Shown here piece by piece: positions 27,904-47,165 of a DNA stretch of 64,000 nt. Every line of letters starts with the position of its first letter. Positions within the stretch are counted from its first letter, which is position 1. The DNA comes from Thermococcus gorgonarius (GTDB lineage: Archaea > Methanobacteriota_B > Thermococci > Thermococcales > Thermococcaceae): assembly GCF_002214385.1 (NCBI RefSeq), contig NZ_CP014855.1:310001-374000 (forward strand). Direction: 5' to 3'. The translations under genes were made by a program, and so were the position numbers. Below the pieces are notes generated by a model. The model worked only from the letters and a program-made list of their open reading frames with translations, had not been told where the DNA came from and made no database searches.

Positions 27904-29283
27904 TCACACATTCACCAACACCTCCTGTTCTCCATACTCCAATTGCTGTCTCCCCTTACCGAGTATCTCATCCATAAATACCCTAAATTTTCTTAGGAAC
28001 TTCTCCCACTCTTTCTCATCAAGAAAGTTTGATCCCAAGTCCAAACTCTTAATAAGGAGTGGAACCCTCTTTTCTACTCGCCCAGCTTTGATGTCAAAGT
28101 GCCACTTCCTATCAATCACGCTGGAAATAGCCGGATAGAGCAGGACAACAGCATCCGCATTCCAGTGAGATGCATAAGCGTACATCTGGTACAAGTCAGA
28201 CTGAGAAACCCCCAGCTTTTGGTCTTCTTTATCGAGAAGCTTGTACTTGGTGTCGATTATTATTTTCATCCCATCCGTCGTCTGTATTGTGATGTCGGGG
28301 ATCAGCCAGAATTTACCCTCGGCAAGTAGGTTCCCAATGTGGTGCTGTGTTTTGATAACACTTCCCTCGAACTCCTTGGGCAATACTTCATACTCGCTGT
28401 TGGTTAGCAGTCCGGCTACAAAACTCTCGAACACCTTCTCCATCGGCACTAAGAACGTGAAAGTTTCCACCTTTCCGGTCTGGAGACGAATGGCAGTTCC
28501 GGCGATGAATACCCTCGCAAGTTCAACCAAGGGCTTGAAGATGGCGTTGAGCCTGTTAAAGTGAATCCGGTACGTTTCATGAACGCTTACCGGAACCACC
28601 GGAACACCATCGAGGATTTCCATGGCACTCCTTAATCTCAGGTAATTCTCGTGGGACTGCGTGAGGCGGGCCATTAAGTAGGCTCCGTACTTTAAGGTTC
28701 TGTTCAGAAGGTTATCCATTGTCCTGTCGTTGTACCTAACAGGGATAACGTGCCTCCTGTGCCACCTTGATGCATAGGCCCCAAAGTCTATCTGCCCCTT
28801 AACATGATTTAACTTCTCCTCAACACGTCTGTAAGTATAATGTCTGTGGTAGCGCAGTGTTTCAAGGAGCTTCTGGGAATAAATTGAGATAAGGATCTCG
28901 AGGAACGGGGCTTTCCCCGAAAGAATTCCTGCTACTTCAGAGGGCTTTACTGGGATCTCCCCTCCTACAGCAAGCATTTTCAGCAGGTTTCCCATTATGA
29001 GTGTCTTGTGGGACTCAAGGTCATCATAGGAGCTCGTTCTCAGCAATTTCGGGAAAATCTGGAGAGTTAGATTACCGATCTGAACCACTCCAACGAAGTT
29101 CTTGGGCTTGATAGTCTTTCGGCCGATTTCGAGGAACTTGATTTCCTCGTTAAGCTTTTCGAGCTTGCCGAACTGGTTTTCAGAAAGGACCAGAGTTTTT
29201 GAGTCCTCATCGAACTCTGCCTTTTTCCCGGTAGTGTAGTTGATTGGGGTAAACTCAAAGAGGTCAACTACCGTCACTTTCAC
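27904..29283 (-). CDS. mcrC: McrC-family nuclease subunit of a McrBC-type system
   Basis: A 459-residue protein. The N-terminal part carries the McrC pattern (GVVQIGNLTLQIFPKLL, then a helical region with GNLLKML), followed by HVKGQIDFGAY and MDNLLNRTLKYGAYLM. The C-terminal PD-(D/E)XK nuclease has LIPDITIQT followed by IIIDTKYK and QSDLYQMYAYA. It would cut DNA when driven by McrB. It starts with a GTG overlapping the mcrB stop by 4 nt (GTGA), so the two are coupled. Last gene of a four-gene minus-strand operon. Confidence 0.93.
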   Translation of the reverse strand: MKVTVVDLFEFTPINYTTGKKAEFDEDSKTLVLSENQFGKLEKLNEEIKFLEIGRKTIKPKNFVGVVQIGNLTLQIFPKLLRTSSYDDLESHKTLIMGNLLKMLAVGGEIPVKPSEVAGILSGKAPFLEILISIYSQKLLETLRYHRHYTYRRVEEKLNHVKGQIDFGAYASRWHRRHVIPVRYNDRTMDNLLNRTLKYGAYLMARLTQSHENYLRLRSAMEILDGVPVVPVSVHETYRIHFNRLNAIFKPLVELARVFIAGTAIRLQTGKVETFTFLVPMEKVFESFVAGLLTNSEYEVLPKEFEGSVIKTQHHIGNLLAEGKFWLIPDITIQTTDGMKIIIDTKYKLLDKEDQKLGVSQSDLYQMYAYASHWNADAVVLLYPAISSVIDRKWHFDIKAGRVEKRVPLLIKSLDLGSNFLDEKEWEKFLRKFRVFMDEILGKGRQQLEYGEQEVLVNV

Positions 29284-32042: not shown

Positions 32043-32045
32043 AGC

Positions 32046-33599
32046 TTACACCTCAAAACTTTCTCCATCCTTCAGGAGAACGACTTTTTCACTCCATCTC
32101 TCTTCAAACCAATCTGGGCTTTCCGTGTGCACCGGGATTAAAACGTCCGGGTCAATATCATTGATGACCTCTTCCAGCTCTTCCTTGGAGATGTGGCCAG
32201 ACGCATGGAGCCCCTTCTCGAAGGTGGGCTTTCCGTCGGCATCAACGCTGAACCCGTGAACCTCGAAACGGAAGTACTGGAGCCAGTTCCAGAGCCTCAG
32301 AAAGCTGAAGGTCTGCTCCTCCGTAAAAGCCTCGCTCGAGGAGTAGATGTAAACCCCTCCATCGGGCATCACATCCAGGAGGTGCGGCATGTCGTAGAAC
32401 GAGAAGCAGAGGATGTAGTTTTCCTGTTCCCTACGAAGCTCTTCGGGTGTTATCCCGATCTCGGGGTAGTTTATGAAAACCCATTCCTCCCACTTCTCAA
32501 CCTTTGCCTTGGAGTTCCTGTAAACTCTCAGACCTTTTAGGTGGTTCTGCCCGTCTATCAGGCCCAGAGCGTGGAGAAAGTATGCGTCCTTCGTGGTCAC
32601 TACCAGCTGTCTGCCAGTTTCTTCGGCAATTTTCTTGAAGCTCTCTAGCCGCTCGAAGTTTCTAGCCGAGAAATCGGCCACTACAAGCCCTTTGGCATCA
32701 TCCACGATGGCTTTTGCATTCTGATAAACTTCTTCTTCCGAAACGTTCACGTCCTCTCCTCTTCCGGCCCTCGTGCCCTCGGTTATCAGAACCTGAGCGC
32801 TTTCCGCGGCCCTGATGAACTCCTTTGTTTTGTCCGCGTTCTTTCCGTGAAGACGGAAGTCTCCGGTGTACGCGACGCTGACGTCTCCTTCAACGATGTA
32901 GGCGACGGCGCCGAAGATTGAATGATCCACAGGATAAGCGCGGATTTCAAAACCGAGATCTTGGTCCTCAACTAGGGAAACGTTACTCCCCCGTATGTAG
33001 TTCACCTTGTTGGGGTTTTCTGCCAGTTCAACATTGGCCCTCCATGTAAGGAATAACATCCCCTCCTCCGGGAGCTTTTCGGTTAGAAAAATGTCTCTGC
33101 TGGCATAGTACTTTAGCTTCCTGTTGGCTTCGAGAACATAGGGGTTCGAGTCGCTGGGCTTCCTTAGGGCATAGTAAGGCAACTCCATCCCCATGTGACT
33201 CCCCCGGCTTGTCTCCCTCAAAGCCTTGAGGATTATCATTGTGGTTGGAGAGCCAACGATCGGGACTTTCTCATCAAGGAGTGCGATGTTTCCAACGTGA
33301 TCAAGGTGGGCATGACTTATCAGAACTGCGTTGACAGGCACCTTTGGGGATTGCCGGACCTCTTCCAAGATATCAGCCGGAATAAGGTCTCTCCGGTAAA
33401 CGTTGAGCCTTGGTATCAGGCCGAGTCTCCAGAGGTCATGTATTCCGCGGGAGGGCCTCTCGCTTATGAACTCTTCATAATAACGGGCATATTTTGCGAA
33501 GTTCATGCCAAAGTCCAAAAAGATGCCATTGTTGTCTTCTTCCAAGTGGATTTTTGAACCTCCAATGGTGGTGGCCCCATCATAGACGGTTATTTTCAT
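32046..33599 (-). CDS. RNase J-like beta-CASP metallo-beta-lactamase nuclease
   Basis: A 517-residue beta-CASP nuclease. It has the metal-binding SHAHLDHVGN, the YTGDFRLHG Asp, a DHSIFG segment, the beta-CASP region with ADFSARNFERLESF, the signature LHASGHISKEEL and the terminal LIPVHTES. All catalytic motifs are present, so an active RNA or DNA exo/endonuclease is expected. The ATG at 33599 is supported by GCGAGGGAACCGCC; earlier codons are leader. It lies between the EVE gene (44 nt upstream) and mcrB (3 nt downstream), so it is a built-in member of the McrBC operon. Confidence 0.92.
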   Translation of the reverse strand: MKITVYDGATTIGGSKIHLEEDNNGIFLDFGMNFAKYARYYEEFISERPSRGIHDLWRLGLIPRLNVYRRDLIPADILEEVRQSPKVPVNAVLISHAHLDHVGNIALLDEKVPIVGSPTTMIILKALRETSRGSHMGMELPYYALRKPSDSNPYVLEANRKLKYYASRDIFLTEKLPEEGMLFLTWRANVELAENPNKVNYIRGSNVSLVEDQDLGFEIRAYPVDHSIFGAVAYIVEGDVSVAYTGDFRLHGKNADKTKEFIRAAESAQVLITEGTRAGRGEDVNVSEEEVYQNAKAIVDDAKGLVVADFSARNFERLESFKKIAEETGRQLVVTTKDAYFLHALGLIDGQNHLKGLRVYRNSKAKVEKWEEWVFINYPEIGITPEELRREQENYILCFSFYDMPHLLDVMPDGGVYIYSSSEAFTEEQTFSFLRLWNWLQYFRFEVHGFSVDADGKPTFEKGLHASGHISKEELEEVINDIDPDVLIPVHTESPDWFEERWSEKVVLLKDGESFEV

Positions 33600-33643
33600 G
33601 GCGGTTCCCTCGCCTGCGAGAAATAATCTAAAAAACAAAAGGG

Positions 33644-34111
33644 TCAAATCCCCTTTTCTAACATCGTTACAAGCTTCATCGGGGCGGATCTAAGATACAT
33701 TGGAGTGGGTCTGAAGACTCCTTTTAGGATCTTCAGTGGGATTGGTGGGCTGAATCTCTGGAAATTCTCCAGTTCGACTATGTAAAATGTCTCATAGTCA
33801 CCCCACCGGTTCTTCGCGAATTCTTCCCACCGGCTGTCCCAGTTCTCGCCTATTATTGACTGTACATAATCTAGCATTCCATCAAGGTCGTATTGTACCG
33901 CAGGTTCTTTGACCGTGGATTTCCCTATGAAGCTTCTTCTCGCAGGCTCGGGGCCCTTTGAGGTTATGTAGTGGTAAACGATGTCTCCTTTGGAAACCTT
34001 CTCCATGTTCTTCCAGTATCCCTTATCCGCGGGGGATACGAGAATCTTCCCGATGTAATCAATTGTGGGAGGTCCAGAAGTTTCGATCCAGTATTTGGCT
34101 AGGTTTTCCAT
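33644..34111 (-). CDS. Stand-alone EVE-domain protein of the McrBC operon
   Basis: A 155-residue EVE (PUA-superfamily) protein. It aligns over its full length with residues about 250-385 of the neighbouring McrB: YWIETSGPPTIDYIGK, IVYHYITSKGP, FIGKSTVK, and a shared end with FYIVELENFQRFSPPIP. EVE/YTH-type domains read modified bases in DNA or RNA. First gene of the operon; the ATG at 34111 follows GGGTGTTACCCA and a TATA box at 34143-34153. It probably arose by duplication of the McrB domain, or the reverse. Confidence 0.9.
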   Translation of the reverse strand: MENLAKYWIETSGPPTIDYIGKILVSPADKGYWKNMEKVSKGDIVYHYITSKGPEPARRSFIGKSTVKEPAVQYDLDGMLDYVQSIIGENWDSRWEEFAKNRWGDYETFYIVELENFQRFSPPIPLKILKGVFRPTPMYLRSAPMKLVTMLEKGI

Positions 34112-34440: not shown

Positions 34441-34565
34441 GGATCTTCTTAATATCATTTTCAAATATTGGAGTAGATAAAAAGTCATAAGACACCTGAA
34501 GGGGGCAATACGCGCTGTTTTGTCAGTTATTAAGATAGAATCAAGAGAGTTTTTCTTGTCTCTTT

Positions 34566-34580: not shown

Positions 34581-34631
34581 CTCTGAACGTTAAAAACTTC
34601 AGGGAGTTAAAACTAAATGGGAGTGGTTGTC

Positions 34632-37600
34632 ATGATGTCCATTGAGAGTAAAGATGTTGCTGAAAAAGCTGGACTTATTGAGTCTCTTCTCACGAACCTC
34701 GAAGCTGAAACCACAACTGATGACGCTATGGACATTTTCAGAGAGATTTTCGAGCATTGGGGCTTTGATCGCGAGGATTATGAAATCGAAAGAGATGACC
34801 TCGATGAATTTGTTGATGAAAACACAGGGGAGCTCAGAATAATCTCAATTGCTCATTCTACCCTGAACTTCTACGTTATTTATGCTGAAACTTGGAAGGA
34901 CACTCTTAAATATCGCCAGAAGCTCGTGAAGAACTTGCTGAAGTTCACTTCCTATTCATCCGACATCTCCTTTGCCAACTTCATCCTGGTTCTCGATGTA
35001 AAAGAAAATCCCAAAAGCCAGAAACACAAATACTGGAAGCTTATCATCCCAATCTACCAGAGAAAACTTGAGAGCGCAAAGCTCAACGTCTACGTAATCG
35101 ACCCAGAGGAGAAAAAGTTCAGAACGCTGGCAGCGAACATGGCCAAAGTCGCCCTTGAGCTCAGTAAGCATGATACACTCTCCGCCAGCTTAATCAAGGA
35201 CGCACTGAACAGATACATGCTCATTAGACCCTTAACCGAGGAGTTCTTTAGAGAATACAAGAAAAACTACTACGAACTTAAGAACTGGATTAAAGAGAGG
35301 TATGGCCACAAACTTAGGGCTCTTTGTCCTGAAGATTACCTTCTAACCGGTGAATCCACCGAGATTCCTAAGGCCAAGAGAGAGGAAATTTTCGTTGAGA
35401 GGGCCGCCAAGACATTCGCCCATACTCTCTTCAACAGGCTGATGTTTGTCTACTTCCTCCAGAAGAAGGGCTGGATAGTCGATCTCAGCACCCTTAGAAA
35501 GGACCTCAAGGATGAAGTGGATGTTAAGAACTTCGTCAGGTGGCTCCACGACCAGTATGAAGAATACGGTGGAAACTTTTACCGCGATTATCTTAGAACC
35601 CTCTTCCTCTACGCCATGAACCGACCGAGGAAGGGATACAGCCGCAGAAACATCGAGGAAATCAAGGCTATTCCCTCCCCCGTTGTTAGAGACGTCTTCA
35701 TCTACGGGGTTCCCTATTTCAACGGTGGACTCTTCAGTCCGGTTGAGATGGCAGGGGTGAACCTCGACGAAGTTATCACGGAAATTGATGATAAACTTAT
35801 GACTGAAATCGTTATGGGGTTCTTTGAGGCCTACAACTTCACTGTCACGGAGGAGACCCCCTACGAGGTCGAGGTCGCCGTCGATCCAGCCATGCTCGGC
35901 AAGATCTACGAGTCTCTAATTGCCGAGGAGGAGCAGGTCGAGAGCGAGGAAGAGAGAAGGGCCTCGGGGATATTCTACACCCCAAGGAGCGAAGTTGACT
36001 TCATGTGCAGGATGGCGGTCTACGAGTACCTCGAGAGGAACACTAAGCTTGATAAAGACGTCCTCATGAAGTTCGTGTTTACTCCTTCCTACGAATGGAA
36101 TCCAAAGGATCTTTCATGGGAGCAGATAGATGCCCTTGAGAAAGCGCTCAACGATGTTAAAGTGGTAGACCCAGCCGCTGGAAGCGGTGCCTTTCTCGTT
36201 GGAATGTACCACCTCCTCATAGAGCTCCACGAGAAGCTCACCGAGGACAGCGTGGTAACCTACAAGAAGAAGCTCGAAATCATAAGGGACAACATCTACG
36301 GCGTCGACATAAAGGACTGGGCGATAAGGGTGGCAAAGCTCAGGCTCTGGCTGGCGCTCATCGAAGGTGAAGGCAAGCTTCCTAACGAGCCAATCCTACC
36401 CAACCTCGAGACAAAGCTCGCCGTTGGGGATTCTCTCGCTCCGCCACACTTTGTTCTGAAAATAGGGGGCAAGAAGAAGGTAGTGGAGATTCCCCTTGCG
36501 AAGTTCAGGGAGAGCCTCAAGCTTCTCTGGGCCAAGAAGGGTGCCAGTGAGGCGATAGTGGCCTACAAAGAGCTCGTGAAGAAGTACTACCTCGGGGAGA
36601 GGATAGACGGGAAGTCCGTGACCCTCAAGGACATCGAGAGGGCCAAGTGGGGTGCCCTTCAGGAGTTCCTTGAGAGGGCCCTTGAGGAGGAGTTAAAGGC
36701 CAAGGAGAAGAAGGAGGTTAAATTACTCCTTGAGGCAGTGAAGAACGAAGACTTCTCGGCCCTTGAGAAGCCCCCATTCATATGGGAGCTCGACTTCCCT
36801 GATGTGATGCTCGAGAAGAGGGGCTTCGACATCGTGATAGCTAATCCACCATACGTGAGGCAGGAGAAGATCTATCCCGAGTACTACGATTTGGCCGAGT
36901 TCCAGATGCTACCAAAGAAGGAGCAGGAGAAACTCAAAAAGGACTACAAGAACAAGATAAAAGCCCACATGGAGACCATACTGAAGGAGAAGTTCCTTTA
37001 TCCTGGGGATCCCTCATTGCCTGGCAGGAGCGACCTCTACGCGTACTTCTTCATCCAATCGGTCAACCTGCTGAACCCTAACGGCTCGCTGGTCTTCATC
37101 ACCTCGAACTCGTGGCTCGATGTTGACTTCGGAAAAGCTTTGCAGGAGTTCTTCATCAGGGCTACTTATCTGAAGGCCGTTATTGACTACACGAAGAGGA
37201 GCTTCGAACAGGCCGATGTCAACACCGTGATAACCGTCCTGACGAGAAAGCCCTCCAAGCTCTTCAACCTCATTGACGAGAAGTCCTTCACCAACTTCGT
37301 CCTGCTCAAAGTCGGCTTTGAGGGAGTGGACCGGAGGCTGGTAAGCAAAATCCTCGAGCCGCACTTTGACCAGAAGGGGATTGAAGTCTTTGGTGGCATT
37401 GTCCACAGTTACGAGGACGATGACGTCAGGGTGAGGAGCGTTAAAACGGTGGAACTGGCAAAGATGGGTGGCTTTAAGATTCAGCCCTTCCTTGTTGGAA
37501 CCTACACCCTTCAGGGCGAATACAAAGGCATGAAGTGGGGCGGGATTCTAATTAGAGCCCCAAGGATATTCTATGTGATCCTTGATAAAGGCAGGGGGAA

Positions 37601-38642
37601 GCTGGTAAAGCTTGGGGAGATTGCTGAGATTAAATATGGGATCAAAACAGGAATTAATGATTTCTTCTATGTCGAGCCCATAAAGGATCCTGTAAAGTTC
37701 CCTAAATGCTCTATTTGTGGGAAGACTCATGAAGATGACCCACTGTTAGTGCCAGTCAAAAATCCGAGAGGGTGGGAAGGATACATAGAGAAGGAATTTC
37801 TCGTACCTGTGCTAAAGAGTCCCCGTGAAATCAAAAAACTAGCCGTGGAACCATCCACGTTGTCAACTAGATTGTTCCTGTGTCCCAAATCAAAAGAAGA
37901 ATTGAAGTTAGAAGGAAAGGTTCATGCTCTTTCATACATAGAATGGGGAGAAAAACAAACAAGTAAGGGGCATCAAGGAAAGCAGGCTAAAGGAGTTCCA
38001 TTTCCACAGATTTCCTCAGTACAAGGCAGAAGATATTGGTATGATGCAAGCAACTCAATTAAATACTTTGACTTTGTATGCAATAGATTTTTTAATGATA
38101 GATTTTTCTTTGCATATTTTACGGAGAGAATTCCAATTGATCAGACATTCTATGGGGCGGTGGTTAAAGGGAGGGAAAAAAATCCTGATGATTTTCTATT
38201 CCAGATTGCACTATTGAATTCCACAGTAGAAGTTCTCATAGCTAGTTTCTTTGGTAGGACAGGGCTGGGAGAGGGAGTTCTGCAATATGCCCTTTATGAA
38301 ATGGAGGATCTGATTTCCCTCAACGCAACTGAAATGAAATTATCCCCTTCTCAGAAACACATAGTTATCCAAGCCTTCGAACAAATGGCTAACCGTCCAA
38401 TCAAGTCCATCTTCGAGGAGCTCGGCCTTCCGAAGCCCAACCGCGACTTGAGCAACATCAACCCCGAGGACGTCTCCCTCGACAAGGTTCTCCCTGACAG
38501 GCGCGAGCTTGACAGGGTCATCTTCGAGGCATTGGGATTAACGGAGGAGGAGCAGCTTGAGGTCTACAAAGCCGTTGTGGAGCTCGTGAAGGCGAGGCTG
38601 GTGAAGGCGAAGACGTTTTCGAAGAAGAAGGGGAAGAGGTGA
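34632..38642 (+). CDS. Large N6-adenine DNA methyltransferase (Eco57I/type IIG-like)
   Basis: A 1336-residue protein. The SAM motif I VVDPAAGSGAFLVG lies at about residues 511-524 and the catalytic motif IVIANPPYV at about 736, the NPPY form typical of N6-adenine methylation. Before them, EERRASGIFYTPRSEVDFM is the usual Eco57I-class lead-in. A C-terminal region of about 450 residues probably recognises the target (KYGIKTGINDFFYV, GAVVKGREKNPDDF). An N-terminal region of about 450 residues has no clear nuclease motif that I can pick out. GGAGTGG selects the ATG at 34632. kwaA starts 4 nt after its stop. Likely protects the host for a system that also uses the helicase at 43791. Confidence 0.9.
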   Translation: MMSIESKDVAEKAGLIESLLTNLEAETTTDDAMDIFREIFEHWGFDREDYEIERDDLDEFVDENTGELRIISIAHSTLNFYVIYAETWKDTLKYRQKLVKNLLKFTSYSSDISFANFILVLDVKENPKSQKHKYWKLIIPIYQRKLESAKLNVYVIDPEEKKFRTLAANMAKVALELSKHDTLSASLIKDALNRYMLIRPLTEEFFREYKKNYYELKNWIKERYGHKLRALCPEDYLLTGESTEIPKAKREEIFVERAAKTFAHTLFNRLMFVYFLQKKGWIVDLSTLRKDLKDEVDVKNFVRWLHDQYEEYGGNFYRDYLRTLFLYAMNRPRKGYSRRNIEEIKAIPSPVVRDVFIYGVPYFNGGLFSPVEMAGVNLDEVITEIDDKLMTEIVMGFFEAYNFTVTEETPYEVEVAVDPAMLGKIYESLIAEEEQVESEEERRASGIFYTPRSEVDFMCRMAVYEYLERNTKLDKDVLMKFVFTPSYEWNPKDLSWEQIDALEKALNDVKVVDPAAGSGAFLVGMYHLLIELHEKLTEDSVVTYKKKLEIIRDNIYGVDIKDWAIRVAKLRLWLALIEGEGKLPNEPILPNLETKLAVGDSLAPPHFVLKIGGKKKVVEIPLAKFRESLKLLWAKKGASEAIVAYKELVKKYYLGERIDGKSVTLKDIERAKWGALQEFLERALEEELKAKEKKEVKLLLEAVKNEDFSALEKPPFIWELDFPDVMLEKRGFDIVIANPPYVRQEKIYPEYYDLAEFQMLPKKEQEKLKKDYKNKIKAHMETILKEKFLYPGDPSLPGRSDLYAYFFIQSVNLLNPNGSLVFITSNSWLDVDFGKALQEFFIRATYLKAVIDYTKRSFEQADVNTVITVLTRKPSKLFNLIDEKSFTNFVLLKVGFEGVDRRLVSKILEPHFDQKGIEVFGGIVHSYEDDDVRVRSVKTVELAKMGGFKIQPFLVGTYTLQGEYKGMKWGGILIRAPRIFYVILDKGRGKLVKLGEIAEIKYGIKTGINDFFYVEPIKDPVKFPKCSICGKTHEDDPLLVPVKNPRGWEGYIEKEFLVPVLKSPREIKKLAVEPSTLSTRLFLCPKSKEELKLEGKVHALSYIEWGEKQTSKGHQGKQAKGVPFPQISSVQGRRYWYDASNSIKYFDFVCNRFFNDRFFFAYFTERIPIDQTFYGAVVKGREKNPDDFLFQIALLNSTVEVLIASFFGRTGLGEGVLQYALYEMEDLISLNATEMKLSPSQKHIVIQAFEQMANRPIKSIFEELGLPKPNRDLSNINPEDVSLDKVLPDRRELDRVIFEALGLTEEEQLEVYKAVVELVKARLVKAKTFSKKKGKR

Positions 38643-38646
38643 ACCC

Positions 38647-39195
38647 ATGCTCAAAAGGTGGGCAAAACTCATCCTAAGTTTGCTAGCGTATTCTCCACTT
38701 TTTGTAATACTCTCAATAAAGAACCTTCCCCTAAAATGGGGACTTATTGTTGGAACAGGGGTGTTTGTTATTATCTTCCTAATAGCGTGGGCCGTGATAA
38801 GGTCCGTGATGAAGATAAACGGACGGCCGATAGTAGTCAAGATAGACAGGGATATTAATGAGCAATATGTTGGTTTTATTGTCACGTACATAGTTCCTTT
38901 TATTGGGACCATTAAGACTGTAAATGACATAATCTCCACTGGAATTTTAATCGCTGTCATCTTTGCCCTGTATTTAACCACCTCACTTTTTGCTGTCAAC
39001 CCGCTCCTAAAGTTACTCTTTGGGTACAATCTCTATTTATGCACGATTAATAATAAAGATGGAATACTCTTATCCAGGGAAAAACTTAATAGGAATGAGG
39101 AGTTATTTTTGCAGGCATACCCACTCGATAAAGGTTCCAACATCTTTATTCATCACAAAGGAGGCGTGAGTAAGTATGAACCAAACAAGAATTAA
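38647..39195 (+). CDS. kwaA: KwaA-like membrane protein of a Kiwa-type defence pair
   Basis: A 182-residue protein with four hydrophobic segments (about 8-27, 31-52, 74-92, 97-118). After them come the conserved-looking VNPLLKLLFGYNLYLC and a soluble tail of about 55 residues. Size, four-helix layout, the IVTYIVPFIG segment and the NPLL..GY motif fit KwaA, and the following gene resembles KwaB. Kiwa is a membrane-bound anti-phage system sensing infection at the envelope. It begins 4 nt after the methyltransferase stop and overlaps the next gene by 20 nt. AT-rich codon use marks it as recently acquired. The assignment rests on pattern memory, not a search. Confidence 0.65.
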   Translation: MLKRWAKLILSLLAYSPLFVILSIKNLPLKWGLIVGTGVFVIIFLIAWAVIRSVMKINGRPIVVKIDRDINEQYVGFIVTYIVPFIGTIKTVNDIISTGILIAVIFALYLTTSLFAVNPLLKLLFGYNLYLCTINNKDGILLSREKLNRNEELFLQAYPLDKGSNIFIHHKGGVSKYEPNKN

Positions 39196-40291
39196 TCCCG
39201 AAGGAGACAATCTGGTGAGAATTGATGTCTCAGAAATTATGTCTAAATTTCCCACAATAAAGGACGAAGAAATTTTGGTCCCAGGGATGTTCATTATCAA
39301 GAGATATCCAAAGCAAGATGGGGAAAACAGACAATACAAATATCTCTTTTACCATGCGGAGATTACAGATGTAGTTGCAGAAATCTTACAGGAAATCTTG
39401 TTTGCATACATCACCTCTCTTTCAAGGTTAGAAACAGAGAGCATTCCGGTTTATCATCCTGATTTAGAAGAGACACCTTGTTATGTTGAATTGTCTTCCA
39501 AAGACTTTCCATATTGGATATATTTTGTTGAAGCTCTTAGAACTGATTACGAGGAGGAGAGAGTGCCTAAGAACATCGAGAGTAACTTGTGGGGATACTT
39601 ATTTTTCCTCCGTGGTTCACAGTATGCCATTGGATATGCTAAAAGGCTTTCAAAATCTAAAGTTGTCAAAAAACGTTTCCTAAGAGGTGGTCTTGCCCAC
39701 AGGGGAGATGTGCTTAACTCCGTTGAAGAAACCGAAAAGGATAAATTGATACTAGCCTTTAATGCCATAGAAACCGTTGAGGGAATTGAGTTCGATAATT
39801 CTGCAGACTTCGTGTTCGTTGTGAATTTTGATGATGTGGACCCCAATAAAGCAGAGTCGTCTTGGGGGGTGATCTGGAACAAGAGCGGCTTTGAGTCTTT
39901 GTTAGATGTCTATGAACATCAAAAACGAAAAGCTCTTGAAATCCTAGAGCAATGTAATACTCTTCAATCTGTTCTCACAGACGAAGATTTCCAAAACTTC
40001 AAGCAGATCATAGAATCCAACAGACAGCTTCATAAAATGCTACTCCATCCCGTAACGAGGCAATACATGAACGAGACGACCATAGAAGATTTCAAATGGG
40101 TAAAAGAAAAGTTTGGTGATGAAGTTTCTTTTGATATCGATGAAGATTCAAATAGAGTCATGCTTCCTCCTACTGACTCTGAAGAATACAAAAAGGCTGT
40201 TAGGGAGGTTTTAGGAGTTATTGGGGCCAGGTTCACAAAAACTCTAAATGATCAACACATTTCAAAGGGAAAACCTGAAGAGTTGAGGTGA
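39176..40291 (+). CDS. kwaB: KwaB-like DUF4868 protein
   Basis: A 371-residue soluble protein. The middle follows the DUF4868 plan: a beta-rich region with YAIGYAKRLSKSKVVKKRFL, then FDNSADFVFVVNFDDVDP, and WGVIWNKSGFESLLDVYEHQ (the VFILN..FE..F-type segment), with a helical C-terminal half. In Kiwa, KwaB is the DNA-associated effector acting after KwaA. It overlaps kwaA by 20 nt and has GGAGGCGTGAG before its ATG. It is somewhat longer than the KwaB proteins I recall (about 315 residues), owing to an N-terminal extension. Confidence 0.65.
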   Translation: MNQTRINPEGDNLVRIDVSEIMSKFPTIKDEEILVPGMFIIKRYPKQDGENRQYKYLFYHAEITDVVAEILQEILFAYITSLSRLETESIPVYHPDLEETPCYVELSSKDFPYWIYFVEALRTDYEEERVPKNIESNLWGYLFFLRGSQYAIGYAKRLSKSKVVKKRFLRGGLAHRGDVLNSVEETEKDKLILAFNAIETVEGIEFDNSADFVFVVNFDDVDPNKAESSWGVIWNKSGFESLLDVYEHQKRKALEILEQCNTLQSVLTDEDFQNFKQIIESNRQLHKMLLHPVTRQYMNETTIEDFKWVKEKFGDEVSFDIDEDSNRVMLPPTDSEEYKKAVREVLGVIGARFTKTLNDQHISKGKPEELR

Positions 40292-40295
40292 AAAT

Positions 40296-41243
40296 ATGAG
40301 GGGTATTACATCTCTCGATGAGATATCAGCATCATTAGACGAAATTCTAAAGGATGTGATTTTAAGAAATCCCTCATTAAGTGAGCCTCAGATTGTTGCG
40401 ATGTATATCAATAGAATCCAACAGTATAATAACAAGTACCCAATATGGATCCCGTGGTCTGGGTATTATCGCCTCCAGATTAGATCTAAGGTCGTCTCCC
40501 AAAAGCCTTATGCGCTTTTTGCTAAGGTTATCCACCAAAAGCCTTATGCGCTTTTTAACACTGGACCATGCAATAAAACTGGACCATGCAATAAAAATCG
40601 AGTAGAACTCGGGGACATCTTGTTTGTAGTTAAATATTACAAATATAATAATAAGAACAAGAGTAGGATGATTGATCAGATGCGCGTGTCTTTCTTGCAA
40701 GCTAAATTAAACAAAAATACCAACAGTTGGAAAATAAGCGCTCATCAGCAAGAATTTTTGTTTACCCCTAGTAAGTATTCATTCCACTTTGGACAAAGTT
40801 GGGGGGATTCTAAGGAGAGAACACGAAGAATAACTTCTAAATCTAAATGGTTGTTCACATATTTACTGATGTCTACATCCAAGGATATTCCCAATTTAGC
40901 TGCGAGTCCTGAGCTAGTTGAGTGTTGGAGGGATCCAATACAACCATGCAAAGATTATACAATCCCGGTAAGTTCATTTGTTTCAGTCTTTTGTTCAAAA
41001 ACACCTATATTTATGTGCGGAGGCTATGCACTCTGGCTTTATAAGTTCCTCAGAAAAAATGGAATTGGTGGATATATCATCAACAAAGGTCAAACTTCGA
41101 ATTCGGAATTGGAGGACTTAGTTAACACAATTTACAGATTTACAGGCCTTCTGCCAGACCCCCCAGATGAATTTGAAGGATACTCTGGGGAAGGAACATT
41201 CGGAATCGTTGAGTTCACATTTACACCATTAGAAGAGGGATAA
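40296..41243 (+). CDS. Unrecognised protein of the Kiwa segment, with internal micro-duplications
   Basis: A 315-residue protein with no family that I can name. Residues about 105-145 read GDILFVVKYY followed by VSFLQAKLNK, a D...QxK spacing that resembles Mrr-like PD-(D/E)XK nucleases, but this is only suggestive. Two in-frame DNA duplications occur near residue 70: a 36-nt unit (QKPYALF twice) and an exact 18-nt tandem unit (TGPCNK twice). A cysteine-rich FCSKTPIFMCGGYALWLY segment lies near residue 240. GAGGTGAAAAT precedes the ATG, 4 nt after kwaB, so it is co-translated with it and may be an accessory of that system. Confidence 0.6.
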   Translation: MRGITSLDEISASLDEILKDVILRNPSLSEPQIVAMYINRIQQYNNKYPIWIPWSGYYRLQIRSKVVSQKPYALFAKVIHQKPYALFNTGPCNKTGPCNKNRVELGDILFVVKYYKYNNKNKSRMIDQMRVSFLQAKLNKNTNSWKISAHQQEFLFTPSKYSFHFGQSWGDSKERTRRITSKSKWLFTYLLMSTSKDIPNLAASPELVECWRDPIQPCKDYTIPVSSFVSVFCSKTPIFMCGGYALWLYKFLRKNGIGGYIINKGQTSNSELEDLVNTIYRFTGLLPDPPDEFEGYSGEGTFGIVEFTFTPLEEG

Positions 41244-41333
41244 CTTAGGAGACTTGAGTGAAGTTCCCTCTCAAAATCGAAGCCATCTCAATAATAACTA
41301 ATATGTTAGATGATATGTTAGACGGGGATTTCG

Positions 41334-42071
41334 ATGCACGAGCTCGACAAGGCAATATTTGAAGTCTTTACGGGCTCGGGAGGGACTATTGCGGCGAATC
41401 TAAGGCCATACTTCAGTCTGGTTCTTGAGGTCTATGGAGCATTCGAAATTATTCACAGGTTTATCCAATGGCGGAAGAGAGAAGAAAGGAAAAGGAACCT
41501 CAAAAGATCCCTCGCACTCACGTTTCAGAAAAAGCTCGATAAAGCTCGTAGTGATCTTGAAAAACTGGCGGATGATGTCGCATACGCGTTTGGGGCACTC
41601 TTCATGTACTCCGTGGCGATACCTCCCTTTGAACCTAAAAAGAAGGCCAGAGACATAATCAAACAGCTTGAAAACGACTACATCGAGATGACAAAGAGCA
41701 TGCAAGAATTAATGAGACTAGTCAAGAAACATAAAAAGATGATAGTTTCAGCCCTTGAGCTGGATGAAACCCAAGTTATGCTGTTGGAAGGTTTAAGTGA
41801 GGCTTTTGAAAAAGAAAAACCTGATATCGAAGCGCTCACTGATTATCTCCCCCTGATTGCTCAGGAGATGCAGAAGACCGAGAAAGAGAGAAAGGATTTC
41901 AGCCGTGAGCTTGCTAAAGGAATAGGAAAGTTCAACTCGGCTTCCGGGCTCATTGTAATAAACCATGCCCTCGGAATCAACAGCCGTTACAAGCGGTGCT
42001 TCAAAAAAGCAGCCAGATACGGGCTTAAAGAGTTCTCTCAAAGGTTCAATGAATGCCGTTTTGGAAATTGA
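41334..42071 (+). CDS. Unrecognised helical coiled-coil protein
   Basis: A 245-residue protein, nearly all helical and lysine/glutamate rich, with probable coiled coils (RSDLEKLADDVAYAFGAL, IKQLENDYIEMTKSMQELM, QEMQKTEKERKDFSREL). One moderately hydrophobic segment, RPYFSLVLEVYGAFEIIHRF, lies near residue 25. No family recognised. It is separated by 90 nt from the preceding gene, where GATATGTTAGA-like near-repeats occur, and may have its own promoter. It lies between the Kiwa-like and AbiE modules. Confidence 0.6.
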   Translation: MHELDKAIFEVFTGSGGTIAANLRPYFSLVLEVYGAFEIIHRFIQWRKREERKRNLKRSLALTFQKKLDKARSDLEKLADDVAYAFGALFMYSVAIPPFEPKKKARDIIKQLENDYIEMTKSMQELMRLVKKHKKMIVSALELDETQVMLLEGLSEAFEKEKPDIEALTDYLPLIAQEMQKTEKERKDFSRELAKGIGKFNSASGLIVINHALGINSRYKRCFKKAARYGLKEFSQRFNECRFGN

Positions 42072-42121
42072 TGGATTTCGCGTATTCTACTAGATACCCC
42101 CGTTAGCTAGAGTTCATTTTA

Positions 42122-42155
42122 ACTAACAACCACTAACTTTTTATGGGTTGTTAGT
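42122..42155. promoter_or_regulatory. Inverted-repeat operator around the TATA box of abiE
   Basis: ACTAACAACC (42122-42131) and GGTTGTTAGT (42146-42155) are a perfect 10-nt inverted repeat. A third half-site, ACTAAC, is at 42132-42137. The spacer contains ACTTTTTATG, the likely TATA element, so binding would block the promoter. AbiEi antitoxins are known to bind inverted repeats and repress their own operon. The predicted transcript starts at or next to the ATG at 42169 (leaderless). Confidence 0.7.
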
Positions 42156-42168
42156 CAAATTGAAAACT

Positions 42169-42792
42169 ATGAAGCCTATCATTCAGTTCCTGCTTGCAGA
42201 GTTTGGGGGGAAGGCGATAACCCGCGAGGAACTGGAGAGACTGGCCTCCAGCTTCAATGAGGACCTTGACTATCTGGTTAACTATCTGATTCAGTACGGT
42301 TACGTCATTCGCATATTACGGGGCCTCTACTACGTGAAAACACCTGTTGAGTTTTCAACAGGAGGTTCTCCTTCGATCTACCGACTTTTGGCTCTGGGAA
42401 TGGATAGACTAACGAGGAATTGGTACTTCGGCCTCTTCACGGCCCTGATTCTGAATGGCCTCACCCACGAAACCTACACGACGGTCTTCGTGATAAATGA
42501 CAGAATAGCGAGGCCAAAGCCAATCACCGTGAATGGAATCTCTGTTAGAATAATCCGGAGCAGGAAGAACATTTTTGACTTTGGAATCGTTGTCAGAGAC
42601 TCCCTCAGGTTTTCAGACCTTGAGAAGACCCTCCTGGACTTTCTCTACTTCGCCAACTATGGCACAATACCAAAGTCACTTGCTTTGAGGATATGGGAAG
42701 AGTATCAGGACAGGGCCAGCAAAGATAAACTTCAGAAGTATCTGAGGAGATATCCCCGGTCGATAAGGAAGGTGGTTGAGAATGCCCGATGA
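42169..42792 (+). CDS. abiEi: AbiEi-type antitoxin/transcriptional repressor
   Basis: A 207-residue protein. An N-terminal winged-helix region (ITREELERLASSFNEDLDYL, then VIRILRGLYYVKTP) is followed by the AbiEi-like domain with RNWYFGLFTALILNGL and SDLEKTLLDFLYFANYG. In type IV AbiE pairs this protein neutralises AbiEii and represses the operon; the palindrome at 42122 fits that. The ATG at 42169 lacks a binding site, consistent with a leaderless transcript. The end overlaps abiEii by 11 nt. Confidence 0.82.
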   Translation: MKPIIQFLLAEFGGKAITREELERLASSFNEDLDYLVNYLIQYGYVIRILRGLYYVKTPVEFSTGGSPSIYRLLALGMDRLTRNWYFGLFTALILNGLTHETYTTVFVINDRIARPKPITVNGISVRIIRSRKNIFDFGIVVRDSLRFSDLEKTLLDFLYFANYGTIPKSLALRIWEEYQDRASKDKLQKYLRRYPRSIRKVVENAR

Positions 42793-43798
42793 GTCCCTTC
42801 TCATGGAGATTCGGAAGAACGAAAGAAGGGGTTTCGCCAGGTTTGTATCGCGAAAAACGAAGATAAAATCCGTAGACCTCGTGGAGTGGGACTACATAAT
42901 CCACACAATCCTCAAGGAGCTTGAGAGGGATCCTCTCTTCAAGGAGAACTACGTCTTCAAGGGAGGAACATGCCTTGTTAAATGCCACCTCGGTTATTAT
43001 CGCTTCAGCAGGGATCTCGACTTCGCGTACCGGCAGGGCGATGAGCTTAGAGAGATGAGCCGAAGCAGGCTGAAAAAATTCCTGAACGAAGAAACGGGCA
43101 GAATTGCGGAGATCCTGAAGTGCGTGGCCAGGGATCTGGGCCTTGAATTCCAATACAATAGTCACAGCGACTTCAACAACCACAGATATTTTAGCTTTCT
43201 CCTTGGCCCCGGCTGGTTTAGGGAAATAATACTCTACTCTCCCTTGAGGGAGAAGATAAAAATAGAGGTAAATTACGCTGAAAGACTAGCATTCAGGCCA
43301 AAGACTCTAAAGGCCCACACCCTCCTGTCATGGAAGCGTGTTGAACTCACACCAAAGGAGTACGAGAGGTACGTTGAGTTTCTCGGCAACTATTATCCCG
43401 TTTCCCTAGTGGCTTATTCTGATAGGGAAATTTTAGTTGAAAAAGTTAGGGCCCTTCTAACAAGAAAAGAGTTCAAGCTCAGGGATCTCTACGACCTTTA
43501 CAAGCTTCACCAGAGGGGTCTCAAGGTAAGCCATTACAGGAATGAGATAGCGGACAAGGTCAGGACTTATCTCGCATTAAGTTCCACGGCATCTCAGAAC
43601 TTGGGAAGCTCGATAGAGGCTCTACAAAAGGGGAAGTTCCTTGTGGATATCGAACCAGAGATAGATCGGGATATTGGTCTCATCGTTGAACCCTTCTCAA
43701 AGGAAGAGTTTTTGAACTTCGTTGAGGAGTTACGTTTTGAACTTGGCAATCTCATTGACGAATTGAAGGACTTGATTGAGGTGGAAACCAATGGCTGA
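42782..43798 (+). CDS. abiEii: AbiEii nucleotidyltransferase toxin
   Basis: A 338-residue nucleotidyltransferase of the AbiEii/MNT class. The active site is VFKGGTCLVKCHLGYYRFSR followed by DLDFAY: GG, then K..., R.S.DLDF. A C-terminal conserved region reads EILVEKVRALLTRKEFKLRD with DLYDLYKL after it. AbiEii toxins inactivate tRNAs or related targets to stop growth during infection. GGTGGTTGAGA selects the ATG at 42782. It overlaps the helicase start by 8 nt, which ties toxin and helicase production together. Confidence 0.9.
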   Translation: MPDESLLMEIRKNERRGFARFVSRKTKIKSVDLVEWDYIIHTILKELERDPLFKENYVFKGGTCLVKCHLGYYRFSRDLDFAYRQGDELREMSRSRLKKFLNEETGRIAEILKCVARDLGLEFQYNSHSDFNNHRYFSFLLGPGWFREIILYSPLREKIKIEVNYAERLAFRPKTLKAHTLLSWKRVELTPKEYERYVEFLGNYYPVSLVAYSDREILVEKVRALLTRKEFKLRDLYDLYKLHQRGLKVSHYRNEIADKVRTYLALSSTASQNLGSSIEALQKGKFLVDIEPEIDRDIGLIVEPFSKEEFLNFVEELRFELGNLIDELKDLIEVETNG

Positions 43799-46700
43799 AT
43801 CGGCCATACATCTTCTCGATAAGTATGGTCTCGTTGACAACAACCGTGTGAGACTAATAGACGTCCTCAGAGAAGTTTTGACCTCTGGAGACTACAACAG
43901 AATAGACGTCGCTGTGGGCTTTCTCTTCATAAGTGGCATGAGGGAGATTCAAAACGAACTCGAGGAGTTTTTCTCGAATGGAGGTAAGATGAGGATAGTA
44001 ATAGGCAATCAAACGAACAGGGAAACTTTTGAGCAGCTCAGCATGGTTTATCACTCCCTTGAGGCGCTCCAGAAAATAAAGCGCCGCGAGAAGAGCGTTG
44101 AGACAAATCTTGACCGGCAGAGCGAGGACATCGAGAAAAACACTAATTTCATGGAGCAGACCGAGGAGAACGAGCTCTTCTTAAGAAGGCTTATGGAATG
44201 GATCCTAAACAATAAACTTGAGATTAGAATCTACGTCAAGGAGTTCATGCACGCCAAAGCTTATCTCTTCTATCCATCAAGGCCGTCAGTCACTAGAATA
44301 GGGCTCGTGGGCTCGAGCAACTTTACGCTGGCGGGGTTCTCAGGCAACACCGAATTAAATGCCATCGTACAGTCAACTCACTTTGAAAGTCTTAAAGAGT
44401 GGTACGATAAGATCTGGGAGGAGGCCCTGCCATTTAACTCAAAGCTCCTTGAGATAATCGAAAGCAGCTGGGCAGGTCAGGTTCCTGGTAATTTGCCGTT
44501 GCCATGGGAGGTCCTTATTAGGGGTCTGTATGAGCTCTACAAAGAGATACTGGAGCGAGATACAGGGTTTCTCTTGAGGAAGCTGGAAAACGTGCTCTAT
44601 CCATTCCAGAAGGATGCAGTTATGAGAGCGATATCCATCGTTAACAAGTATGGAGGGGTTCTGATAAGTGACGTTGTGGGTCTAGGTAAAAGCTACATAG
44701 GACTGGCGCTTTTGGAGCACTTTTCCCTACTTGATCTCCTCCACGGCCGTTCGAGGGAAGTCGCAGTAATAGCACCCCCTGGTCTTGTCCGCTATTGGGA
44801 AGGATTATTATGGGAATACAACATTCCTGGGAGAGTGTTTTCATCCGGTCTGTTGCCCCGTAGGGAGCTATCACCTGATAAATACCGAGAAATGGAGGAA
44901 TACATCAAACGCGTCGGAACTGTCTTAGTTGACGAAGCCCACCACTATTCAAATCCAAGCACGAAATCCTACAAAAACCTCCAGGAACTTGTCGCTGGCA
45001 AAAGACTTATTCTCTTGACGGCGACACCATACAGGAAGAGATACAAGGACATAATAAGCCAGATTCGCCTTTTCCTCCCAGAGAGACGCCATCCCTTCCC
45101 GATAACACCCCAGACATGGGATGATCTAACAAAGGCCATAGAAAAGGGTGAAATAGATCCTTCCTACGTGTTCAGGGAGATACTGATACGAAGAACTCGG
45201 TACGACATTCTCAAGCTCTACGGAGGAGAAGGCAACTGTATTCGCGTAAAGAAAAACAAAAAGCTCTGTTTCCCTAAGAGAAAGCTGTCAGTGCTCACGT
45301 ACACAATATCAGAGATTTACTCGGAAGATATCTACGAGTTGCTTTTGGAAGGTATCTCTTCCATGAACTATGCCAGGTTTGACCTTTACAGCTATGTCCT
45401 CCCCCAGTTTCAGGACGCCGAACCATATCGGAGTCTCTCCTCGGCCGGTAAAGGACTCAGGGGCATCATGAGGATCCTTTATCTAAAACGCTTAGAGAGC
45501 TCTTGGTATGCAATGTATCAAACCTTGAAGAGAGATCTAATAAAGACCAAGAACTTCATTAATTTTGTCAAAAACGGTTTCATACCTGCGGGAGACGAGT
45601 TTGACGACGTTCTCCTCGGAAAGATCAATGGAAACCGAGAACGGGTTCTCAGCGAGGAAGAAGTGAGGGACTTCATCAGAAACTACAGGCTAAAGAATGA
45701 AGTCACATACAAGGCAGGCGCCTTTAGGGTTAGTAAACTCCTTGAGGATTTGAAGCATGATGTGGGAATCTTAGAGTTAATGGAGAAGAGACTCAGGCCT
45801 CTCAAGGAGAACCTTGAGAACAACTCTGAGAAAGACCCAAAGCTAAGGAAACTCGCGGAAGAGATAATAAGACTGAGGCAGGAAGGCAAGAAAGTCCTCG
45901 TCTTCAGTGAGTTCGAGGAGACCGTTCAGTGGATTTATCGGGGCCTCAAGAAGATGCTCCCTGAAGATATCGCTCAAAAGATGGAATACGTGAGCTCAAA
46001 CACCAAGGGGATAGCTGACAAAATAAGACGCTTTGCTCCGAAGGCTAATGGTTACAAAGATATCGAGGAGTCTCAGGAACTCCACATCTTAATAGCGACC
46101 GATGTTCTCAGCGAAGGTCTCAACCTTCAAGATGCTAACGTCGTCATAAACTACGACCTTCACTGGACCCCAATTAAGCTCATTCAGAGGATAGGGAGGG
46201 TCGATAGGATAGGGACAGAGCACGATGAAATTTTGGTTTACAACTTCTTCCCCGAGAGGAAGCTTGAGGAGAACCTTGGGCTCCTCCAAAAGGTCGAGAG
46301 AAGAATTCAGGAGTTCAGCAGGGCCCTTGGCACGGATGGAAAAATCCTCCAGGAGGAAGAGGAGTGGAATCCGTCGGCAATGAGGGCAATCTACGGAACT
46401 GATGAGATAGAGAAGATAGAAGATGAATTCAGCGGTTCACTATTATCTGTTACAACGTTTGCAGAGAAGCTTTTGAGGGATTACAAAGAGGCAAATGAAA
46501 AACGGTTCAATGAACTCATCCAGAGGTACTCAATGAGAAGTATTGCAAGGGTTCCCAAGATAAGTGCCCCAATGGCGTTCTTTGTCTGCAGTAATGGTGT
46601 GATCTCCCAATACTTTGTTTACTACCTTGCAGACGGTAAGTGGAAACCTCAAAACGTGCCAATAGAACAACTGTTAAGAGATACTGGCTTAGATGAAAAT

Positions 46701-47165
46701 ACACCTCCCTACAACAGCAGTGAAGCTATGGAAACATACCGCATTGTTGCTAAGAAGGCATTATCTGACTTTAAGAAATTGCTAAAGATTGCGGAGAGCG
46801 AGCTGGAATACACCCATAAAAGACCATCAAAGATACCGTCAAAGATACAGCTTATCCTAAGAAAAATCGAGGAAAAAATAGAAAAAACAAGGAACCCCGG
46901 AGAGAAGGAGTACCTTAGCCAGCTTCGCGATTTGGTGTACTGGGGTTATCTGAATCATGAACCCTTCAAAAATGCATTATTCAAGGCTAAGATAACTAAA
47001 AGAACTTCTAGGGACGAGGTGATAAACCTCTGCCAGGAGCTAGTTGAGCGGTTTGGCATAGCGGCACGTCGCAGTGCCATCAAGGAGGAAGTCAAAAAGC
47101 GTAGGACTGAGGGTGTTAAACCGCACATAGTTGCAGGCATTCTCTTTGTCCCTGCGGAGATGTGA
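43791..47165 (+). CDS. PLD-family nuclease fused to an SNF2-type helicase
   Basis: A 1124-residue protein. Residues about 1-230 are a phospholipase D-like domain with FMHAKAYLFYPS and GSSNFTLAGFSGNTEL (HxK...N/E arrangement). A superfamily 2 helicase follows: a modified Walker A VVGLGKSYIGLALL at about residue 300, DEAHH, LLTATPY, and in the second lobe VLVFSEFEETVQWIYRGL, VLSEGLNLQDANVVINYDLH and QRIGRVDRIG. The C-terminal 250 residues are helical. Such helicase-nuclease proteins accompany adenine methyltransferases in defence loci. GAGGTGG before the ATG at 43791 sets the start. It probably works with the methyltransferase at 34632, from which it is separated by Kiwa- and AbiE-like genes. 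Confidence 0.92.
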   Translation: MAESAIHLLDKYGLVDNNRVRLIDVLREVLTSGDYNRIDVAVGFLFISGMREIQNELEEFFSNGGKMRIVIGNQTNRETFEQLSMVYHSLEALQKIKRREKSVETNLDRQSEDIEKNTNFMEQTEENELFLRRLMEWILNNKLEIRIYVKEFMHAKAYLFYPSRPSVTRIGLVGSSNFTLAGFSGNTELNAIVQSTHFESLKEWYDKIWEEALPFNSKLLEIIESSWAGQVPGNLPLPWEVLIRGLYELYKEILERDTGFLLRKLENVLYPFQKDAVMRAISIVNKYGGVLISDVVGLGKSYIGLALLEHFSLLDLLHGRSREVAVIAPPGLVRYWEGLLWEYNIPGRVFSSGLLPRRELSPDKYREMEEYIKRVGTVLVDEAHHYSNPSTKSYKNLQELVAGKRLILLTATPYRKRYKDIISQIRLFLPERRHPFPITPQTWDDLTKAIEKGEIDPSYVFREILIRRTRYDILKLYGGEGNCIRVKKNKKLCFPKRKLSVLTYTISEIYSEDIYELLLEGISSMNYARFDLYSYVLPQFQDAEPYRSLSSAGKGLRGIMRILYLKRLESSWYAMYQTLKRDLIKTKNFINFVKNGFIPAGDEFDDVLLGKINGNRERVLSEEEVRDFIRNYRLKNEVTYKAGAFRVSKLLEDLKHDVGILELMEKRLRPLKENLENNSEKDPKLRKLAEEIIRLRQEGKKVLVFSEFEETVQWIYRGLKKMLPEDIAQKMEYVSSNTKGIADKIRRFAPKANGYKDIEESQELHILIATDVLSEGLNLQDANVVINYDLHWTPIKLIQRIGRVDRIGTEHDEILVYNFFPERKLEENLGLLQKVERRIQEFSRALGTDGKILQEEEEWNPSAMRAIYGTDEIEKIEDEFSGSLLSVTTFAEKLLRDYKEANEKRFNELIQRYSMRSIARVPKISAPMAFFVCSNGVISQYFVYYLADGKWKPQNVPIEQLLRDTGLDENTPPYNSSEAMETYRIVAKKALSDFKKLLKIAESELEYTHKRPSKIPSKIQLILRKIEEKIEKTRNPGEKEYLSQLRDLVYWGYLNHEPFKNALFKAKITKRTSRDEVINLCQELVERFGIAARRSAIKEEVKKRRTEGVKPHIVAGILFVPAEM

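Follow-up and report, generated by a model that had tools for sequence, protein, structure and literature searches.

The window, the whole 64-kb stretch of DNA that was analysed, sits in a complete 1.67-Mb Thermococcales genome. Across positions 34617-47165, it carries a run of plus-strand genes that begins with an Eco57I/PglX-like adenine methyltransferase and ends with a PLD(HKD)-SNF2 helicase. An archaeal Kiwa-like gene pair, two open reading frames without a significant family match and an AbiE antitoxin-toxin pair lie between them (Table 1). The KwaA-like and KwaB-like proteins were recognized by PADLOC profiles only and had no Pfam match. The helicase translation shows HAK..GSSN, GLGKS and DEAH motifs, with an HKD/PLD N-terminus and an SNF2 core.

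Table 1. Genes of the defence-gene slot and sequence features around the predicted abiE operator (window positions)
Feature	Position	Strand	Evidence
Adenine methyltransferase (Eco57I/PglX-like), first gene of the frame	34617-38642	+	Pfam Eco57I 3.3e-30
KwaA-like and KwaB-like genes (archaeal Kiwa), slot cargo	38647-40291	+	PADLOC KwaA 3.4e-17, KwaB 7.3e-7
Two cargo ORFs	40296-41243, 41334-42071	+	no significant family match
Extended imperfect palindrome (predicted operator)	42108-42169	.	arms 42108-42136 and 42141-42169; repeat search
Left perfect half-site ACTAACAACC	42122-42131	+	arms co-vary over 26 distinct homologous sequences
BRE/TATA element of abiEi CCACTAACTTTTTATG, between arms	42130-42145	+	promoter model, 13.5 bits; 11.4 bits retrained
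Right perfect half-site GGTTGTTAGT	42146-42155	+	arms co-vary over 26 distinct homologous sequences
abiEi, antitoxin and probable repressor, 207 aa, probably leaderless	42169-42792	+	PADLOC AbiEi 7.6e-109; conserved ATG
abiEii, nucleotidyltransferase toxin, 338 aa	42782-43798	+	Pfam AbiEii 3.4e-24
Highest-scoring promoter-like match within abiEii; not taken to be a promoter	43701-43716	+	7.6 bits first model; 8.7 bits retrained
SD-like GAGGTGG before the helicase ATG, inside abiEii	43778-43784	+	sequence; GAGGTGA/G kept in most relatives
PLD(HKD)-SNF2 helicase, 1124 aa	43791-47165	+	Pfam PLDc_2, Helicase_C, SNF2; PADLOC HKD+Snf2 5.7e-60

The first-pass annotation had described a perfect 10-nt inverted repeat flanking the TATA element of abiEi, and this description proved exact: the coordinates of the half-sites ACTAACAACC and GGTTGTTAGT agree with a promoter match in the 14-nt spacer between them, ACTAACTTTTTATG. 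Perfect 10-nt inverted repeats with spacers of 4-30 nt occur three times in the window, compared to 1.2 expected from shuffled sequence, and the chance expectation of finding one in the 97-nt gap before abiEi is approximately 0.002. A repeat search identified this repeat as the core of an imperfect palindrome that is centred on the BRE/TATA box of abiEi, with 29-nt arms that are 79% complementary and 4 nt apart. Promoters were scored with a BRE/TATA model trained on other upstream regions; the first version included some AbiEi promoters, and we retrained the model without any AbiEi upstream region. The sole strong promoter of the 97-nt gap was the match in the repeat spacer (13.5 bits with the first model), which retained 11.4 bits after retraining, a score that 0.014% of coding positions reach. 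One arm covers the edge of the BRE, and the other covers the DNA from the TATA box to the start. The TATA position predicts a transcription start at approximately 42166-42169, so abiEi is probably leaderless. The ATG at 42169, which is kept in relatives, is the most likely translation start; an alternative TTG at 42148 falls within the repeat. Since the predicted transcription start is downstream of the left arm, we rejected an RNA hairpin or attenuator as the role of the repeat. This layout has a precedent in Pyrococcus furiosus, where the TrmB palindrome lies at the BRE/TATA of malE (PMC4158304).

Next, we characterized the two AbiE proteins. A PDB sequence search with the AbiEi profile yielded no AbiEi match, and we therefore compared folds. 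The predicted fold of AbiEi (pLDDT 93) matched 6y8q (Streptococcus agalactiae AbiEi) best, followed by 1zel (Rv2827c), with no other PDB entries at E ≤ 0.001. PADLOC and the predicted fold thus agree on an AbiEi antitoxin with a winged helix and the AbiEi C-terminal domain; the Pfam AbiEi_4 match fell below its cut-off. The second gene encodes a DUF1814 nucleotidyltransferase in which the FKGGT, SRDLDF, EKVRAL and RDLYDL motifs are intact, and the pair has the inverted repeats over its own promoter that are typical of AbiE.

To assess conservation of the repeat, we gathered abiEi promoters from 115 genomes of the class. The palindrome precedes approximately 30 Thermococcales abiEi genes, and every usable promoter among them has it at about −52 to −37 and −23 to −9 from the ATG, with a T-rich TATA box between the arms. 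The arm sequences vary by clade (ACTAACAACC, ATAACAACC, GTAGAACAACC, TTGTTAAACAATC and AGTTAGTTAAAAATCG are examples), and they do so in concert: of the 15 symmetric pairs, 10 show changes in both arms across 26 distinct sequences. Compensatory cells in the same set numbered 61, compared to 24.9 ± 4.7 in shuffled and 5-16 in slid versions; since the sequences are related, the shuffle numbers are not probabilities and the slid control is the safer one. Pairing cells reached 85.9%, compared to 24-45% in slid versions, a count that takes in approximately 16 G-T cells, which are meaningless for DNA symmetry (approximately 82% are Watson-Crick).

A GTDB-wide scan extended the AbiEi family to Archaeoglobales, Bathyarchaeota, Thermofilum, Methanomethylicota, Hadesarchaea, Diapherotrites and others. 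Many of these archaeal lineages have a palindrome of the type TGTAACAA..TTGTTACA, centred 29-31 nt before the start. Among 67 upstream regions, 32 had a palindrome at p ≤ 0.05 against Markov shuffles, and 23 of those 32 were centred no more than 8 nt from the best TATA box. In the same scan, most Lokiarchaeota AbiEi upstream regions had no clear palindrome. Separately, a second operator type, TTATATCATAA..TTGTGATATAA, centred at about −21, was found before more distant archaeal AbiEi genes (L162-L182). Co-variation of the arms and the spread of the site over archaeal phyla both support the earlier reading of the repeat as an AbiEi-type operator around the TATA box, and on these sequence comparisons the palindrome is very probably a real operator of this kind. 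The window's genome has one AbiE system and no further operator copies; as there is only one copy, an AbiEi regulon beyond its own operon was rejected for this genome.

The AbiE pair occupies one end of a larger arrangement. In 16 Thermococcales loci (L072-L087), a slot of 2.0-8.8 kb lies between the methyltransferase and helicase genes; these are the loci where the contig reaches, one of them with an interrupted helicase, and the two genes were linked in every locus that could be seen. Besides Kiwa, slot cargo includes TIR, an AAA ATPase with a RAMA protein, a metallo-beta-lactamase with an OLD/Gabija-like ATPase, PIN, HEPN-MNT, AbiE of two families and genes without a known family. An intact AbiE is always the last item of the slot. 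These patterns suggest that a restriction-modification-like gene pair forms a frame within which defence genes are exchanged, and it is fair to read the helicase as a putative restriction enzyme from its PLD and SNF2 parts and the linked methyltransferase. The methyltransferase, which lies outside the AbiE operon, has a separate promoter-like site at 34565 (10.9 bits, retrained model) and no operator. The 245-aa protein encoded at 41334-42071 recurs in most related slots, sometimes with broken frames. On the minus strand, positions 29280-34111 encode a McrB-like protein with AAA_5 and EVE parts, a metallo-beta-lactamase protein and a third protein of 155 aa, which shares 40% identity with the EVE part of the AAA_5 gene; this may be another defence block.

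At the AbiE end of the slot, abiEi, abiEii and the helicase gene overlap in a chain. The reported overlaps of 11 nt (42782-42792) and 8 nt (43791-43798) matched the start and stop coordinates exactly: the AbiEi stop ends at 42792 and the AbiEii ATG is at 42782, and the AbiEii stop ends at 43798 and the helicase ATG is at 43791. A separate strong promoter for the helicase within abiEii would have spoken against joint control. We searched for one and found no promoter above coding background within abiEi-abiEii; the best match, 8.7 bits at 43701, is equalled by 0.085% of coding positions. We do not use the contrast in promoter score between AbiE-positive and AbiE-negative helicase starts as main evidence because it was weak once the model was retrained.

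We then examined how often AbiE and the helicase are joined. Nine loci have an intact clade-A AbiE pair beside the helicase (G000, G110, G050, G077, G038, G071, G089, G097 and G102, with G077 counted although its contig ends inside abiEi). The helicase gene overlaps the toxin gene by 8 nt in seven of the nine and follows a 2-nt gap in the other two. In G038, the upstream neighbour of abiEi runs on the opposite strand, so no promoter is closer to the three genes than that of abiE. Other clade-A copies, including those in G107 and on a contig of G103, have no helicase, and G033 has a broken toxin gene, with the helicase located elsewhere in the genome. Clade-B AbiE pairs also lack the helicase, and stand-alone pairs carry the same operator. 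None of the 44 pairs from the wider scan had a comparable third gene after AbiE; one pair carries an overlapping frame that is probably spurious, and in another an FtsJ-like gene follows at a distance of 17 nt. Coupling to the helicase is thus specific to one AbiE clade.

On the helicase tree, AbiE-positive loci do not form one clade, and at least four changes (gain, loss or replacement of AbiE) are needed, with the helicase retained; since the helicase survives where AbiE was lost or replaced, it does not need AbiE. Relics explain some of these changes: G039 keeps the 3' end of AbiEii in front of the helicase, G067 keeps an AbiEi start together with its operator, and both G102 and G097 contain AbiEi-like pieces. 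The place of clade-A AbiE is taken by an unrelated AbiE family in G094. The AbiE-free loci of G055 and G052, together with the G094 locus, have plausible helicase promoters of their own according to the promoter model. Trees of the two helicase halves, which bear on whether AbiE follows the PLD half, gave no clear difference. An inverted orphan clade-A operator lies between the unrelated AbiEii and the helicase of G094 (L077, approximately 9694-9735), in a genome with no clade-A AbiEi. Two further operator relics have no AbiE, and each adjoins the 3' end of a gene with an EVE domain (L113, G039:C1:398970; L118, G072:C28:1953).

We infer AbiEi binding, repression, co-transcription, joint derepression and a nuclease function of the helicase as parts of one mechanism. 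Two AbiEi subunits would bind the palindrome, one on each side of the TATA box, and block access of TBP, TFB and RNA polymerase to AbiEi's own promoter. A single mRNA would span abiEi, abiEii and the helicase gene and be translated as an overlapping chain, so that AbiEi would set the level of both the toxin and the PLD-SNF2 helicase. The helicase and the methyltransferase, which lies at the opposite end of the slot, would act together in the manner of a restriction-modification pair, and AbiE would be a removable regulator or guard module directly before the effector gene. We consider it likely that the helicase is co-transcribed from the operator promoter and co-repressed; the full model of one promoter and one mRNA with control of toxin and helicase is reasonably probable. 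The earlier proposal that the AbiEi promoter sets the helicase level therefore stands in part: tight packing in nine loci and the lack of a convincing internal promoter favour it, and the repeated changes of AbiE with the helicase kept, the helicase's own promoters in some loci and possible read-through oppose strict dependence.

AbiE might instead be only an addiction or abortive-infection cassette, with the helicase expressed mainly by read-through from the methyltransferase and Kiwa genes or from a weak promoter in abiEii, and with AbiEi control minor. In its favour, the same-strand genes of 34617-47165 are separated by small gaps, but G038 has no same-strand gene before abiEi. The match at 43701 could serve as the weak promoter; it is at coding background, however, and reflects conserved codons. 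That the helicase persists where AbiE is lost or replaced, and that stand-alone AbiE pairs have the same operator, would fit a mere cassette, yet nine loci preserve the tight junction, which other AbiE pairs lack. Overall, we find this explanation unlikely.

The palindrome itself could have another role. It might mark a recombination or insertion boundary of the AbiE module, instead of or besides being an operator, as might be expected from the relic copies at island edges in G039 and G072 and from the inverted copy in G094, which matches the G103 operator at 38 of 42 positions. All intact copies, however, keep a constant spacing to abiEi and have the TATA box at their centre, and plain decay also yields relics, as in G067, where the AbiEi start follows; a boundary role is very improbable. 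Binding by a regulator other than AbiEi seems more improbable still: other Thermococcales repressors, such as TrmB, do use BRE/TATA palindromes (PMC4158304), but here the genome has a single copy, intact copies are located at abiEi genes and the site follows the AbiEi family across phyla.

If AbiEi acts as the operator model predicts, joint release of toxin and nuclease upon damage to AbiEi, as the first-pass annotation had proposed, is plausible. Derepression would also raise toxin and helicase relative to the protecting methylase, because the methyltransferase gene has a separate promoter-like site and lacks the operator. Whether this amounts to a tripwire, in which a type IV antitoxin is the dedicated controller of a restriction-type effector and functions in infection, is more doubtful, though possible. 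A virus that removed, sequestered or outlasted AbiEi would then free the toxin and a DNA-degrading helicase from one promoter, with the methyltransferase under separate control, and abortive infection and restriction would be joined in one operon.

Archaeal AbiE itself is already known (PMC12988326), including in the PYG1 island of P. yayanosii (PMC5126054). In the open-access literature searched, we found no description of AbiEi with archaeal TATA promoters or of AbiE arranged with restriction-modification, and no equivalent of the concrete, widely conserved operator for archaeal AbiE that we propose here. The operator layout can be tested directly against TBP/TFB access. The physical joining of a toxin-antitoxin regulator to a restriction-type effector makes co-regulation of defence systems within one island testable, in a genetically tractable genus.

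Finally, we compared this locus to known systems. Among named systems, the closest to it are the DUF499-centred BREX-related (BR type 2)/Hma systems, which share an N6-methyltransferase and an HKD-SNF2 helicase effector (PMC12839542). Though both of these are present here, we rejected BR/Hma membership because the DUF499 ATPase (PF04465) is absent from the window's genome and from relatives such as G038, G050, G052 and G055. DISARM was also rejected, as none of ten neighbouring proteins matched DrmB or DrmC and the DrmA/DrmD matches of the helicase cover the helicase core only. Like BrxR of BREX and other defence islands, AbiEi is predicted to repress from inverted repeats that lie close to a promoter within a mosaic defence island (PMC9122601). 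Unlike BrxR, a WYL protein at the head of its island, AbiEi sits before the last effector only, and Pfam found no WYL domain in it.

The arrangement also resembles C-protein-controlled restriction-modification, in which an autoregulating HTH protein (here predicted) shares its promoter with a downstream nuclease gene and the methyltransferase is separate (PMC12707154). Here, however, the regulator is a type IV antitoxin, with a toxin gene between the regulator and nuclease genes; no small C.PvuII-type C protein precedes the nuclease gene, the regulator being AbiEi by profile and fold. C proteins also activate, whereas AbiEi would be expected only to repress. The bacterial AbiE type IV operons of S. 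agalactiae AbiEi and Mycobacterium tuberculosis Rv2827c share the order of antitoxin gene first and DUF1814 toxin gene second, as well as the antitoxin fold. In S. agalactiae, two AbiEi monomers bind two 23-bp inverted repeats, 3 bp apart, over their own promoter and repress it (PMC7319586). The geometry of the palindrome is close to that of this operator, with two inverted repeats a few base pairs apart that overlap the promoter. Unlike in bacterial AbiE, an archaeal BRE/TATA promoter lies between the repeats here, and a third gene, encoding the PLD-SNF2 helicase, overlaps the toxin gene.
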